DNA from: Limnothrix sp. FACHB-406
Lineage (GTDB): Bacteria; Cyanobacteriota; Cyanobacteriia; CACIAM-69d
Assembly: GCF_014698235.1 (NCBI RefSeq)
Contig: NZ_JACJSP010000001.1
Location: forward strand, 186,001 to 250,000
Direction: 5' to 3'
Length of the DNA stretch: 64,000 nucleotides
Shown in pieces: positions 36,519 through 44,804 of this stretch. Under the pieces are notes generated by a model. That model had not been told where the DNA came from. It searched no databases and worked only from the letters and a program-made list of their open reading frames with translations. Position 1 is the stretch's first letter. Every line of letters starts with the position of its first letter. The position numbers and the translations under genes are program-made.

Positions 36519-38417
36519 ATGGCCAAAGTCGTCGGAATTGACCTCGGAACCACCAACTCTTGCGTTGCCGTAATGGAAGGCGGCAAACCCACCGTCATCG
36601 CCAACGCCGAAGGTTTCAGAACAACCCCTTCAGTCGTGGCCTACGCAAAAAACGGCGACAAACTCGTTGGTCAAATTGCCAAGCGCCAAGCGGTGATGAA
36701 CCCCGAGAACACCTTCTACTCGGTCAAGCGCTTCATTGGTCGTCGCTTTGAAGAAATCACCCACGAAGCCACCGAAGTGGCCTACAACGTAGACAACGTT
36801 GGTGGAAACGTCCGCATCAACTGCACGGCCAAGGGTGAAAAATACGCTCCGGAACAAATTTCCGCCCAAGTGCTGCGCAAGCTGATCGAAGATGCCAGCA
36901 AATATATCGGTGAACCCGTTACCCAAGCGGTCATTACGGTTCCCGCATACTTTAACGACTCCCAACGCCAAGCCACCAAAGACGCAGGCAAAATCGCAGG
37001 CGTAGAAGTGCTGCGGATTATCAACGAACCGACTGCCGCATCGTTGGCTTACGGTCTTGATAAAAAAGAAAACGAAACGATTTTGGTCTTCGACTTGGGC
37101 GGCGGTACGTTTGACGTATCGGTGCTGGAAGTGGGCGATGGCGTGTTTGAAGTGTTGGCCACCTCGGGGGATACCCACCTGGGCGGCGATGACTTCGACA
37201 AGCAGATTGTGGATTTCCTGGCCGACACGTTCCAAGCCAGCGAAGGCATTGACCTGCGCAAGGACAAGCAAGCTCTGCAACGGCTGACGGAAGCCGCCGA
37301 GAAGGCCAAGATTGAGCTGTCGAGCGTTACCCAAGCCGAAATTAACCTGCCCTTCATTACGGCAACCCAGGACGGGCCCAAGCATTTGGACTTGACCCTG
37401 ACCCGGGCCAAGTTTGAAGAGCTGTGCGCTGACCTGATCGATCGCTGCCGGATCCCCGTTGAGAACTCCCTGCGCGATGCCAAGCTGACCAAGACTGACA
37501 TTGACGAAGTGGTGTTGGTGGGCGGTTCAACCCGGATCCCGGCCATCAAAGACCTGGTGCGTCGCGTTCTGGACAAGGAACCCAACCAAAGCGTCAACCC
37601 CGATGAAGTGGTGGCCGTGGGCGCTGCGATTCAAGGCGGCGTGCTGTCCGGTGAAGTTAAGGACATCCTGCTGTTGGATGTGACTCCGCTGTCGTTGGGT
37701 GTGGAAACCCTGGGCGGCGTGATGACCAAGATCATCCCTCGCAACACCACGATCCCCACCAAGAAGTCCGAGGTGTTCTCGACGGCGGCCGACGGCCAAA
37801 CCAATGTGGAAATTCACATTCTGCAAGGGGAGCGGGAGTTCGCCAACGATAACAAGAGCTTGGGAACCTTCCGTTTGGATGGGATTCCGGCTGCGCCCCG
37901 GGGTGTGCCTCAAATTGAGGTGACCTTCGACATCGATGCAAACGGCATCCTGAACGTGACCGCTAAGGACAAGGGCACGGGCAAGGAACAGTCGATCAGC
38001 ATTACGGGTGCTTCGACATTGCCGAAGGACGATGTGGATCGGATGGTGCAGGATGCGGAACGCAACGCCGCCGCCGACAAGGAGCGCCGCGAACAAATCG
38101 ACCTGAAGAACCAAGGCGACTCGCTGGTTTACCAGGCTGAGAAGCAACTGAAGGAACTGGAAGACAAGATCTCCGACGACCAAAAGGCCACGGCCGAGGC
38201 CGCGATCGCCAGCCTGAAGGATGCGTTGCAGAAGGAAGATTACCCGGCCATCAAGACCCAGGTGGAGGCCCTGCAACAGGCGCTGTATACGATCGGGTCG
38301 TCGGTGTATCAGCAAGGGGCCCCGGATGCGGCCGCTCCCGATGCACCCACTGGGGATAGTTCGACCGGTGGCGATGGCGATGATGTCATCGATGCGGAGT
38401 TCTCGGAAACGAAGTAA
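36519..38417 (+). CDS. dnaK: Molecular chaperone DnaK (Hsp70)
   Basis: 632 residues, full length. The ATP-driven chaperone that holds unfolded protein segments, working with DnaJ and GrpE. ATPase domain 1-385: [61 protein letters not shown] and [12 protein letters not shown]. The linker is [19 protein letters not shown]. The peptide-binding part is [21 protein letters not shown], with a helical lid up to about 600. The C-terminus ends GDDVIDAEF, close to the EVEDADFE-type tail of other DnaKs. It is single-gene here, without grpE or dnaJ beside it; cyanobacteria usually have several dnaK paralogues and this looks like the DnaK2-type main one by length and tail. Confidence 0.97.
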
Positions 38418-39850: not shown

Positions 39851-40462
39851 CTAACTGGGGAACGATTTTTGAACCATCAAGCAATTGCGCTTTCCATAGC
39901 GACGGTAACGCACCCGCCGCGACAATTGCTCCATAAACATCAATCCTCGCCCCGATTCCTTCTCCAAAGGATTGCGTTTTTCTTGTTTCAGTAAAGCCAA
40001 CTTTGCATCCCAATCAAAGGGATCGCCGTAGTCCCAAATTTGAATATTTAAACAACGTCCGCAACGGCCCACCTCAACCACGATCGGGGTGTGTGGGGGG
40101 CGGTGATGGTGCGCATGGCGAGCCGCATTCGTAAATCCTTCCGTCAAAATCAACTGGCACTCCCACAGAAATTGCGGCGGCAGCGATTCAGGAATAGCCC
40201 GCTTCAAAATGACATCAAACCACTGCAACAACGAAGGCAGTTCCTGAAGATCCGTTGTGAGGTGCAGGTGCGATTGATGGCTGGTGGGCATCCAGCGGTT
40301 ATCCGTTTGGTAGTCCCACCAATGGTGCAGACGGGGCCCCAACCCCTGAGTCCACCATTGCTGCCAGCGACGGGGCCGCAAGCAATCTCGCAACCAGGCA
40401 AGGCGGCCGCGCAGAGATTTAAAGCGGTTTGATTTGATCGAACCTTGAGGACGCGCGCCCAT
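39851..40462 (-). CDS. Anti-sigma-type Ser/Thr kinase (RsbW/SpoIIAB-like HATPase)
   Basis: 203 residues. The C-terminal ~130 form a GHKL ATPase of the anti-sigma factor class: N box LTEGFTNAARHAHHH with E and N for magnesium, G1-like IWDYGDPFD, and G2-like ESGRGLMFMEQL. The basic N-terminus of ~60 residues (many Arg and Trp) is unusual and could bind membrane or nucleic acid. Such kinases phosphorylate a serine in a STAS partner and so release or capture other proteins. The gene directly upstream (13 bp) encodes a STAS domain fused to a sugar transferase, a likely target. No sigma factor is in the window. Confidence 0.87.
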   Translation of the reverse strand: MGARPQGSIKSNRFKSLRGRLAWLRDCLRPRRWQQWWTQGLGPRLHHWWDYQTDNRWMPTSHQSHLHLTTDLQELPSLLQWFDVILKRAIPESLPPQFLWECQLILTEGFTNAARHAHHHRPPHTPIVVEVGRCGRCLNIQIWDYGDPFDWDAKLALLKQEKRNPLEKESGRGLMFMEQLSRRVRYRRYGKRNCLMVQKSFPS

Positions 40463-40475
40463 GTGACTCGCCTAA

Positions 40476-41471
40476 CTACATTGCGCCGCTGCTGCGGGAA
40501 AACAGAAGTGCGACGGTTTTGAGAATGAGTTTTAAGTCGTGCTTCAAGCTCCAGTTTTCCTGATATTTCAGGTCTAGGCGAATCACGTCCTCAAATTTTT
40601 TCACCGTCGATCGCCCATTAACCTGCCACTCACCGGTCATTCCAGGACGCACATCTAACCGCTGCCATTGGGGAACCTCATAGCGCTCCACCTCATCAGG
40701 CGTGGGCGGCCGAGTACCCACCAGGCTCATATCTCCCCGCAACACATTCCAGAATTGGGGTAGCTCGTCCAGGCTGGTGCGGCGTAAAAAACGACCAATG
40801 CGAGTAATGCGGGGATCGTTGTCATTCTTGAAGAACGCACCCTCAGCTTGGTTTTTAACTTCCTTGCGCCGGGCTTCTGCATCAGAAACCATGGAGCGAA
40901 ATTTCCAAAGCCGAAACCGCTTACCCATCCAACCGCAACGGGACTGGCTAAAGAGAATGGGGCCGGGGCTGTCAAGACGAATCGCGATCGCGAGGGGAAC
41001 AAACAAAACGCCCAAAATGGTCAGCCCCACCAGCGAACCTGCAATATCGAGGGTGCGCTTCACCCACGATCGCACCGAGGGGTGAGTAGCCGGTGGCAAC
41101 ACCTCTTCTGATGCAGCCTTGGCGCTCATGAGGGTGGTGGCCCGTTCGATCGGCAACATCGCATCCAAACCCGTCATGGACAACACAGCCATCACTGGCG
41201 GCTGCACATCCCGCAGTACAAAGCTCACACCCGTCGCATGGGCCAGCTTATAGCTGCTGACCAATGCACCGATACCGCTGCTATCCACAAAAGCGGTGCG
41301 GCTGAAGTCCAGAGTGATTTGAACCGGAAGCGATTCCGATTCACAGAGCATTTTGCAGGTGTCCTTAAAATCAACGGCTTCCAGAACAGAGAGGCGCTCA
41401 GGGATATGAAGAACCGTTTCAGTGGTTCCAGCCACAGTTGAAACACCAATACTAGTCGGCTGCGAAGTCAT
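40476..41471 (-). CDS. STAS domain fused to bacterial sugar transferase
   Basis: 331 residues. Residues 1-118 form an anti-sigma-antagonist STAS domain with the phosphorylation site DSSGIG (S64/S65). Residues 135-331 are a complete undecaprenyl-phosphate sugar-phosphate transferase of the WcaJ/ExoY/RfbP type: one membrane segment at about 142-167, KFRSM, the acidic DEL in RRTSLDELPQFWNVL, GDMSLVGTRPPTPDEV and VRPGMTGEWQVNGRS. These enzymes load the first sugar phosphate onto the lipid carrier that starts exopolysaccharide or O-antigen synthesis. The fusion places the carrier-loading step under a phospho-switch domain, and the HATPase kinase gene is 13 bp downstream in the same unit. Confidence 0.93.
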   Translation of the reverse strand: MTSQPTSIGVSTVAGTTETVLHIPERLSVLEAVDFKDTCKMLCESESLPVQITLDFSRTAFVDSSGIGALVSSYKLAHATGVSFVLRDVQPPVMAVLSMTGLDAMLPIERATTLMSAKAASEEVLPPATHPSVRSWVKRTLDIAGSLVGLTILGVLFVPLAIAIRLDSPGPILFSQSRCGWMGKRFRLWKFRSMVSDAEARRKEVKNQAEGAFFKNDNDPRITRIGRFLRRTSLDELPQFWNVLRGDMSLVGTRPPTPDEVERYEVPQWQRLDVRPGMTGEWQVNGRSTVKKFEDVIRLDLKYQENWSLKHDLKLILKTVALLFSRSSGAM

Positions 41472-42041: not shown

Positions 42042-44804
42042 CTAAAAGCCGCTAATGCCGTCAGCGGGAGCGCCCACCAGGTATGCCACCACTCGATTAC
42101 CCAGCAGCACCTTCGTATCGCAGCCCACAGACTCAAAGGTGACCTGACCAAAATCAAGGCCGGTGATGCGATCGACCCCTCGCTCAAAGTCCAGAATCGT
42201 GATGGTTCCGGGGCGATCGCCCAACACGAGCGTATCCCGTCCCGCGCCACCGCCCAAGGTATCGTCTCCTTGGCCACCATCTAGCCAATCGTCTCCATCG
42301 TTGCCTAACAGCAGATCTTTGCCCCAACCGCCAAAGAGGGTGTCGTTACCATTGCCGCCGCCCAAGGTATCGTCGCCATTCTGACCAACCAACAAATCAT
42401 TACCTTCGCCACCCAACAGGCGATCGGCATCCGCTTCGCTACCCAGGAGATCTCGGGTCACTCCCCCATCAAGGTCACCAAACAGGGTGTCATTGCCCGC
42501 GCCGCCCACCAGCAGGTCTTGGCCCAAATCACCCCACAGAAAGTCATCATCTCGGCCGCCCCAAAGGGCATCTTGGCCACTGCCCCCAAAGATGCGATCG
42601 CGCCCGGGGCCCCCTTGCACCACGTCATCCCCCGCGTTGCCGTTGAGCTGGTCGTTGCCCGCATCACCGTAGAGGTTATCGTTGCCACCTAGCCCAAAGA
42701 TGCGATCGGCTCCCTCGCCACCCCGAATTTCTTCGCTGCGATCCGAGCCGGTAATGAAATCGCTGGAGTTGCGGCCCAACGTGGCCGGCTGGGCGATCGA
42801 GTTCTGCCGAAACTGCACTCCGGGTAAATCCGGCAGCGGCAGCGGTGCTGGCTGCGTTGCTAGGTTACAAACGGGAGCACGCGAACTGCCGATCGGCGTA
42901 ACTGTCGAAATATTCGGGAAAGTGACCCCTGACCCCGAGTTCGATCCGCCATTAATCACAATGCCCCGCGACGCATCGATCACAACTCCCGGGCCACTGG
43001 TGGTTGGTGTGCTGCTTCCACCGGTTGGTGTGCCGCCTCCCGATGTGCCGCCAGTGCCGCCTCCTGATGTGCCGCCTCCAGAGGAACCACCGCCGCTAGC
43101 CGTGTCGTTATCAGTATTGGTTGCTGTAATTTCAAACGGTGACAGCGACGTGTACTTAGAGTCGCCAGTTGTCACTGAGCCGGTGATTTTGTAAGCAACC
43201 GTACCATCAACAATTGAGTCGTCAACACCTGTAACCGTAATAGGTTGCGCTGTGTTCCAGTTCTTGTCGTCAAACGTCACTGAAGCAGGCGAGACAGTTC
43301 CTTCAGCCTTGTTGGAGCTAACCAGACTAATTTTCACTGGGCTGGTTGGCTGAGAGGTCAACTTTAGATCAAATTTTGCTGTACCACCCGACTCTGTAGT
43401 GACTAATCCTGATGCTGGTGTCCGCTCAATTCCAGCAACATCATCATCAGTATTGGTCAAGCTCACCGATGCAGTTAGCGCATCATATTTTCCATCCGGA
43501 GAGCTTGACTTCAGGTCGATTTTATAGGGCTGATCTCCGTCGTCCACATCATCATTAACACCAGTCACTGTAACTGACTGAGTACTGTTCCAGTTATCTT
43601 TAGTGAAGGTGAGAGGAGTTACGGAAACCGTTCCTTCAGCAGTATTGGAACTGGTCAAGCTAATTTTTACATCATCTGTGGGCTGAGATTTAAGCTTTAC
43701 GTCAAAGGATGTCGTTTTACTGCCACTTTCTGCCGTTGTGAGTCCAGTGGTCGGCGTAACCAGTAATCCTGGCGTTAGTAAATCATCATCTTTGATAGTA
43801 ATGGTTTGGGATACGATGCTAGACAGGGATAGTCCAGGCGATGGATTTTTCAGAGTGAGGGTGATGGTCTCATCATTACTGTCGTCATCTGAGAATGTTG
43901 AAATCTTGGGAAATGCTTCTGGATCAACTGGATTAAGAACAAGAACGCCTTGTGTTTTACCGGCTGGAATAATAATCTTTAATGAGCTTTGAGCCGGATC
44001 AACATCATGAATTTCATAGTCTGCGTCTGCGGTTGGGTCACTTGTAAGTCTTGTTGCATTTCCTCCCAACTCAATTTCAATGGTTTGATCACTCGCAACT
44101 GGTGAAGTTGTAGTGACTTGAATGACTGCATTATTTAAAGGCTCTTCCTCATCAATTGTGAAGGATGTTGCGTTCGATGACAGAGTTGTCAAGGATGCCA
44201 GATCAAATGACAGGCTGACGGGGATTTGCGTAATTGATGTTTGCCAGTTGTTGGGATCCCCAACGTATGACAACCAAGCACTTTTGTCGGCTTTGGGAGT
44301 CCATGCTTTGAGTTGCCCAGCGGTTCTATAGCTACCGGCAGGTAAAGTAGTAGCAGTTGACCCTAGCGATAACCCTTTAGCCATTGGGCTATTCGAGTTA
44401 CCGAAAATAGTAGTAGTGGATTGAGACTCAAAACCATTAGTGGTATCAACTTGAAAGATAGGGGTCAGTTGAGCGGGTGTGGTCAAGGATGGAGGATCTA
44501 CTGTGCTCTGAAAAGCAGTAATTTGATCACCAGCCGAATCCAAAGAAAGGGGTGAATAGGGAGACGAAGAAGACCATCCAGAAGCACTTGTGGATGATAT
44601 GTAGGTTCCAACTGGAATGTCACTAGGCGCGGTAAATTTGATGAGACCTTCACCTGTCCTAAAACCAATTGTGTCCTCTCTCCATGCGTTGTCAGTAAAG
44701 TAGATATTTGTGCCAGAAGCTAGTGGTACAAGATTGATAAAAACGAATGAGCTTGCGTCATAGCGGACGATCGCGATATCGCCGGGGGTCAGGGTGGTAG
44801 GCAT
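42042..44804 (-). CDS. Large secreted RTX protein with Calx-beta-like repeats
   Basis: 920 residues; AGGAAG lies before the ATG. The N-terminal ~200 residues resemble a lamin-tail-like domain (FVFINLVPLASGTNIYFTDNAW). There follow Calx-beta-type repeats (SGLVTTESGGTAKFDLKL, ITVTGVDD), then a Gly/Ser/Thr linker at about 565-605. About eighteen RTX nonapeptides of the GGxGxDxLxG type follow at about 695-865, and a hydrophobic C-terminus, as in type I secreted proteins. It has no signal peptide, which agrees. It should fold in calcium outside the cell as surface or adhesive protein. The middle portion (43100-44700) is clearly more AT-rich than the RTX part and than neighbouring genes. Confidence 0.85.
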   Translation of the reverse strand: MPTTLTPGDIAIVRYDASSFVFINLVPLASGTNIYFTDNAWREDTIGFRTGEGLIKFTAPSDIPVGTYISSTSASGWSSSSPYSPLSLDSAGDQITAFQSTVDPPSLTTPAQLTPIFQVDTTNGFESQSTTTIFGNSNSPMAKGLSLGSTATTLPAGSYRTAGQLKAWTPKADKSAWLSYVGDPNNWQTSITQIPVSLSFDLASLTTLSSNATSFTIDEEEPLNNAVIQVTTTSPVASDQTIEIELGGNATRLTSDPTADADYEIHDVDPAQSSLKIIIPAGKTQGVLVLNPVDPEAFPKISTFSDDDSNDETITLTLKNPSPGLSLSSIVSQTITIKDDDLLTPGLLVTPTTGLTTAESGSKTTSFDVKLKSQPTDDVKISLTSSNTAEGTVSVTPLTFTKDNWNSTQSVTVTGVNDDVDDGDQPYKIDLKSSSPDGKYDALTASVSLTNTDDDVAGIERTPASGLVTTESGGTAKFDLKLTSQPTSPVKISLVSSNKAEGTVSPASVTFDDKNWNTAQPITVTGVDDSIVDGTVAYKITGSVTTGDSKYTSLSPFEITATNTDNDTASGGGSSGGGTSGGGTGGTSGGGTPTGGSSTPTTSGPGVVIDASRGIVINGGSNSGSGVTFPNISTVTPIGSSRAPVCNLATQPAPLPLPDLPGVQFRQNSIAQPATLGRNSSDFITGSDRSEEIRGGEGADRIFGLGGNDNLYGDAGNDQLNGNAGDDVVQGGPGRDRIFGGSGQDALWGGRDDDFLWGDLGQDLLVGGAGNDTLFGDLDGGVTRDLLGSEADADRLLGGEGNDLLVGQNGDDTLGGGNGNDTLFGGWGKDLLLGNDGDDWLDGGQGDDTLGGGAGRDTLVLGDRPGTITILDFERGVDRITGLDFGQVTFESVGCDTKVLLGNRVVAYLVGAPADGISGF

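Follow-up and report, generated by a model that had tools for sequence, protein, structure and literature searches.

A candidate partner switch built on a STAS–phosphoglycosyl transferase fusion and its neighbouring RsbW-type kinase in cyanobacteria

Introduction

The RsbU/RsbV/RsbW and SpoIIAA/SpoIIAB systems of Bacillus are partner switches in which a serine kinase acts on a STAS protein, a PP2C phosphatase opposes it, and a sigma factor is the output. In Vibrio fischeri, serine phosphorylation of the STAS protein SypA controls biofilm polysaccharide; unphosphorylated SypA is the active form, and SypE is both kinase and phosphatase. A comparable set is present in the cyanobacterium Nostoc punctiforme, in which HmpU, HmpV and HmpW comprise a PP2C phosphatase, a STAS protein and an RsbW-type kinase that act in hormogonium development, with HmpV as the output. 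Both SypA and HmpV are free STAS proteins; the target of the former is unknown and the effector of the latter undefined.

Little is understood of how exopolysaccharide synthesis is controlled post-translationally at its first committed step, and the lipid carrier that is loaded in this step is also used by peptidoglycan. Two initiating phosphoglycosyl transferases (PGTs) are known to be activated post-translationally by a signalling protein: EpsZ of Myxococcus xanthus, to which the single-domain response regulator EpsW binds in trans (PMC12802240), and CapM of Staphylococcus aureus, a catalytic protein that CapAB phosphorylates on tyrosine (PMC6441080). Neither system involves a STAS domain or an RsbW-type kinase. 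In WbaP of Salmonella enterica (8t53; PMC10942596), activity is regulated by an N-terminal accessory domain, and the protein carries a four-helix bundle and a CoA-binding-like domain.

STAS-glycosyltransferase fusions are already known: in Anabaena sp. PCC 7120, the glycosyltransferase all4160 has been described as carrying a STAS domain at its N-terminus (Wang et al. 2007, cited in PMC8256260). The gene is grouped with those needed for heterocyst envelope polysaccharide, with dependence on SigC/SigE (PMC4390870). It resembles the fusion considered here in architecture, as matched by the published domain description alone, and the passages that describe it name neither a kinase nor a phosphatase as partner. 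Searches of an open-access library turned up no account of a STAS-PGT with a linked RsbW-type kinase or PP2C phosphatase, a result that does not establish novelty. Here, such a fusion and an adjacent kinase gene are analysed in a 64-kb stretch of DNA from Limnothrix sp. FACHB-406 (the window), and their organisation is compared across the phylum.

Results

A STAS-PGT fusion is followed by an RsbW-type kinase gene

The features of the locus are as follows.

40476..41471, minus strand: STAS-phosphoglycosyl transferase fusion gene P0001, 331 aa (PF01740 and PF02397; AlphaFold/Foldseek; full-length relatives phylum-wide)
41142..41417, minus strand: STAS domain, aa 19-110 (Pfam)
41268-41285, minus strand: DSSGIG, D63-G68, with predicted phospho-acceptor Ser64 (alignment to SpoIIAA; conservation in 126/126)
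40500..41060, minus strand: monotopic PGT catalytic domain, aa 138-324, with LDELPQ (234-239) and VGTRPPT (Pfam; motifs)
40463..40475, minus strand: intergenic gap of 13 bp between the fusion stop and the kinase ATG (coordinates)
39851..40462, minus strand: RsbW/SpoIIAB-type serine kinase gene P0002, 203 aa (PF13581; fold matches; N-box)
40292..40462, minus strand: basic, Trp-rich N-terminal extension of P0002, aa 1-57, putatively coding (composition)

Both domains of P0001 exceed the curated Pfam cut-offs (STAS, E 1.1e-12; Bac_transf, E 9.6e-67). The Bac_transf match covers 178 of 179 profile positions and scores 224 bits against a cut-off of 27, and the near-complete catalytic domain contains both LDELPQ and, at position 253, TRPP, as is characteristic of monotopic PGTs. 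By its domain, P0001 is thus predicted to transfer a sugar-1-phosphate to polyprenyl phosphate, and it probably starts the synthesis of slime (exopolysaccharide). The AlphaFold model (mean pLDDT 86) matches PglC (8g1n) in Foldseek with an E of 2.8e-15, and its N-terminal part matches TM1442, SpoIIAA and RsbV (E 1e-6 to 1e-4). The initial annotation had described a STAS domain with an intact DSSGIG site joined to a sugar transferase; this was borne out by Pfam, and with the motif starting at D63 its serines are S64 and S65. In the model, which lacks Met1 and is therefore numbered one lower, the helix that follows DSSG starts at the serine. The further description of a full WcaJ/ExoY-type enzyme was accurate for the monotopic catalytic core only. 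P0001 has no match to PF13727 in Pfam, lacks the four-helix membrane bundle and the CoA-binding-like domain of WcaJ/WbaP, and falls under the cut-offs of TIGR03023 and TIGR03022. The term is inexact because the protein consists of a small monotopic core in which a STAS domain replaces the WcaJ/WbaP accessory part.

P0002 has an HATPase_c_2 domain (PF13581; aa 71-199; E 2.7e-19, over the curated cut-off) with intact N-box and G1/G2 motifs, and its model (mean pLDDT 77.6, with low confidence over the first 57 residues) matches SpoIIAB (1til, E 8e-10) and also RsbW (6m36). As originally noted, its ATG lies 13 bp past the P0001 stop codon on the same strand, and this short gap suggests that the two genes are co-transcribed. 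Only four small RsbW-like genes with clear scores are present in the 4.5-Mb genome of this strain. Near the pair are a DnaK gene (36519-38417, plus strand) and a gene for a 920-aa RTX calcium-binding repeat protein (42042-44804, minus strand). DnaK1 influences polysaccharide production in Nostoc (PMC9239167); the window gene is assigned as DnaK only.

The basic N-terminal extension reported for the GHKL kinase was recovered (12 K/R and 3 D/E among its 57 residues, together with 7 W), although its coding status is unproven, since the start in most relatives lies some 10-20 aa ahead of the domain. It is possibly membrane-associating. For the window kinase, an amphipathic membrane helix was considered and rejected, since the amphipathic moment of the extension is not above that of shuffles of the same sequence. 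Similarly basic extensions are found in the kinases of G133 (locus L164), G227 (locus L137) and Laspinema, and the moment exceeds that of shuffles in G133 and G227. Such extensions would fit a kinase that is recruited to the membrane and serves a number of STAS proteins as a phospho-hub; the fused STAS domain would then only help to localise it. However, they are missing in most relatives, and the one in the window is not amphipathic beyond chance; this explanation is considered highly improbable.

The kinase is linked to the fusion in several genera

In a phylum sample of 386 genomes, about 90 matches span most or all of the fusion, including those in Nostoc, Microcystis, Planktothrix, Microcoleus, Laspinema, Cyanobium and one purple sulfur bacterium (Rhabdochromatium). 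Neighbourhoods were compared for 126 fusion genes, nearly all of them cyanobacterial; a few loci are identical or near-identical duplicates, and thus not all are independent. An RsbW-type kinase gene is present within 1.5 kb downstream of 49 of the 126 fusions, on the same strand in 48 cases. Within 6 kb the count is 50/126, compared with 0/35 for unfused PGT loci from the same search; on this control, adjacency of the two genes by chance was rejected. An unrelated gene order in all relatives had been named as evidence that would speak against a functional pair. Instead, the kinase is directly downstream of the fusion in Microcystis, Planktothrix, Microcoleus, Laspinema, Cyanobium, Synechococcus and a second Nostocales paralogue, and the gap is zero or negative in many relatives, such that the genes overlap or nearly abut. 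At Microcoleus-type loci, in which the gap is near 500 bp, no convincing conserved ORF was found between fusion and kinase.

The remaining 77 fusions have no adjacent kinase, and these chiefly belong to one Nostocales clade (53 entries) without a linked kinase. Since this clade retains both DSSG and the DUF3318/QueE surroundings seen in kinase-bearing relatives, it is probable that the kinase was lost or moved or that the STAS domain works otherwise. With 77 of the 126 lacking an adjacent kinase and the clade keeping its motif, a STAS role that needs no linked kinase is possible, and a two-gene reading is not plainly extendable to all fusions.

Several individual loci differ in arrangement. 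Two tandem RsbW-type kinase genes follow the fusion at L057:5914-8179, and at L200:7226-8780 STAS and PGT are separate overlapping frames ahead of the kinase, either by frameshift or as a natural split. The Rhabdochromatium marinum fusion (L069:5896-9325) is followed by two glycosyltransferase genes with no kinase nearby; its transfer from cyanobacteria is possible.

PP2C phosphatase genes adjoin the pair in some relatives, with no sigma-factor gene detected

A PP2C gene is present within 6 kb of 11 of the 126 fusions, versus none of the 35 unfused PGT loci. It adjoins the fusion-kinase pair in Laspinema, G227 and Nostocales paralogue loci. For instance, five of the latter (L071, L167, L168, L169 and L184) share the order GT2, PssD (Alg14-like), PssE (GT28 C-terminal), fusion, kinase, free STAS, after which a receiver-PP2C gene and a large gene lie on the opposite strand. 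The receiver-PP2C was confirmed by Pfam in L071 and L168, and so was the large gene of L168, which encodes a hybrid histidine kinase; the remaining assignments were made by similarity. At L165, fusion, kinase and receiver-PP2C are all on one strand. In Laspinema and G227, fusion and kinase are followed by a PAS-PP2C gene and then by a free STAS gene on the other strand. The search for a phosphatase that the initial annotation had proposed was therefore successful in these relatives, while none was found within the 64-kb window itself. Elsewhere in the strain's own genome, six SpoIIE-family genes exceed the cut-off, one of which is a receiver-PP2C adjoining another RsbW-like kinase. Separately from the fusions, L245:2336-4668 has a free STAS gene, a receiver-PP2C gene (opposite strand) and an RsbW-type kinase gene near a cellulose-synthase-like gene, and is thus an HmpUVW-like locus; a free STAS gene near a kinase, as at L245, is present in many other genomes.

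Using a profile from the sigma factor of the strain's own genome, no sigma-factor gene was detected within 6 kb of any of the 126 fusions, compared with one of the 35 unfused PGT loci. The expectation of control without a sigma factor is consistent with this result, and a sigma factor as output, as in the Bacillus systems, was not found in these surroundings. The direction of control could nevertheless be reversed: the fusion would then be a membrane-anchored sink or sensor, whose STAS domain sequesters the kinase and thereby controls a sigma factor or another target, so that polysaccharide flux is reported to gene expression. RsbW-type kinases do bind sigma factors in the canonical systems, and nine sigma-70 region 2 matches are present elsewhere in the genome. 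In addition to the lack of a nearby sigma-factor gene, however, the pair sits among glycosyltransferase genes in several lineages, and such a reversal is considered quite improbable.

The predicted phospho-site is conserved and the kinase co-varies with the STAS domain

Ser64, the first serine of DSSG, is retained in all 126 fusions. It aligns with the first DSSG serine of SpoIIAA (Ser58). In 1tid/1til, the SpoIIAA chain has Ala at this position, being the S58A mutant of the phospho-acceptor. Because S64 faces this Ala, it is expected to be the phospho-site rather than S65; according to the model, it is also a phosphorylatable serine of a DS[ST]G motif at a helix start. All 49 fusions with an adjacent kinase have an intact DSSG[ILV]G motif, as do 69 of the 77 without one, so that the eight deviants all come from loci with no kinase alongside (Fisher p 0.022, uncorrected for relatedness). 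Likewise, both the Glu and the Asn of the N-box are unchanged in all 49 adjacent kinases. DSCG deviants include Okeania and G318; in Okeania-type fusions (L058, L062 and L192), DSCG replaces DSSG and no kinase is linked. At L195:7121-8522 and L197:7608-8938, a free STAS gene directly follows the fusion, no kinase is present, and the fusion motif is now DSSGVV.

In a tree of 112 kinases, the deep forks of which are weak, fusion-adjacent kinases mostly cluster (7 label changes, versus a shuffled mean of 36.7) and group apart from most kinases that adjoin free STAS genes. The window kinase is in the main group of adjacent kinases, and an unlinked kinase of G068 groups weakly with the adjacent family. 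Among 36 non-redundant pairs, kinase distances correlate with STAS distances (r 0.83). The partial correlation given PGT is 0.62 (reached in 0 of 2000 permutations), whereas that between kinase and PGT given STAS is 0.25. Kinase divergence thus tracks the STAS domain more closely than the PGT domain, which supports a partnership, although both evolve fast and the correlation is possibly inflated.

These observations also bear on whether the STAS domain serves, independently of phosphorylation, as a scaffold or dimerisation module in place of a WbaP-like N-terminal domain, with the kinase acting on other STAS proteins. In position, the domain does correspond to the accessory domain by which the WbaP dimer is stabilised and UMP is sensed (PMC10942596), and the kinase is missing at many loci. 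Against a scaffold speak the invariant Ser64, the motif deviants that occur only where no kinase is adjacent, the kinase divergence that follows STAS, and the physical linkage of kinase, PP2C and free STAS in several lineages. A purely structural STAS domain is therefore regarded as unlikely.

Discussion

Overall, the interpretation first made from the window is backed by comparative genomics, namely by the linkage of the two genes, the linked PP2C in relatives and the co-variation of kinase and STAS domain. P0001 and P0002 would form a partner-switching module, the former as effector and the latter as kinase, with an enzyme as its output. The kinase would bind the STAS part of the initiating PGT and phosphorylate it at Ser64, and a PP2C phosphatase, linked in some relatives and encoded elsewhere here, would undo this phosphorylation. 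A second, free STAS protein, where present, could compete for the kinase. Whether the PGT loads sugar-1-phosphate onto the lipid carrier would depend on the phosphorylation of the STAS domain or on its binding, and the first exopolysaccharide step would therefore be gated post-translationally. We infer binding, phosphorylation, the effect on catalysis and the polarity alike; on the strength of the genomic patterns, a kinase/STAS-PGT partner switch that gates the first committed step is considered probable. SypA and HmpV suggest that the unphosphorylated STAS-PGT is the likelier active state, although the odds are put at no better than about even. In some Nostocales, a hybrid histidine kinase and a response-regulator PP2C appear to feed into the circuit.

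Compared with Bacillus, the domain folds, the position of the phospho-serine and the PP2C opponent are alike, but the apparent output is a fused enzyme in place of a sigma factor. WbaP has a homologous catalytic domain and a regulatory N-terminal part of another kind, and EpsZ and CapM are under the same level of control as is proposed here. Unlike in the Syp and Hmp systems, the STAS domain is joined to its putative target, and thus a STAS-PGT fusion with a neighbouring kinase makes explicit the kind of target that SypA and HmpV leave open. At about even odds, a complete partner switch acts directly on a STAS domain built into the PGT and gates the entry of the shared lipid carrier into exopolysaccharide, and the STAS-PGTs may be the missing effector of cyanobacterial partner switches such as HmpUVW. 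The STAS-PGT architecture is widespread among mat- and bloom-forming cyanobacteria, including Microcystis, Planktothrix and Microcoleus, and the findings suggest that polysaccharide is switched at the level of the enzyme rather than by transcription.
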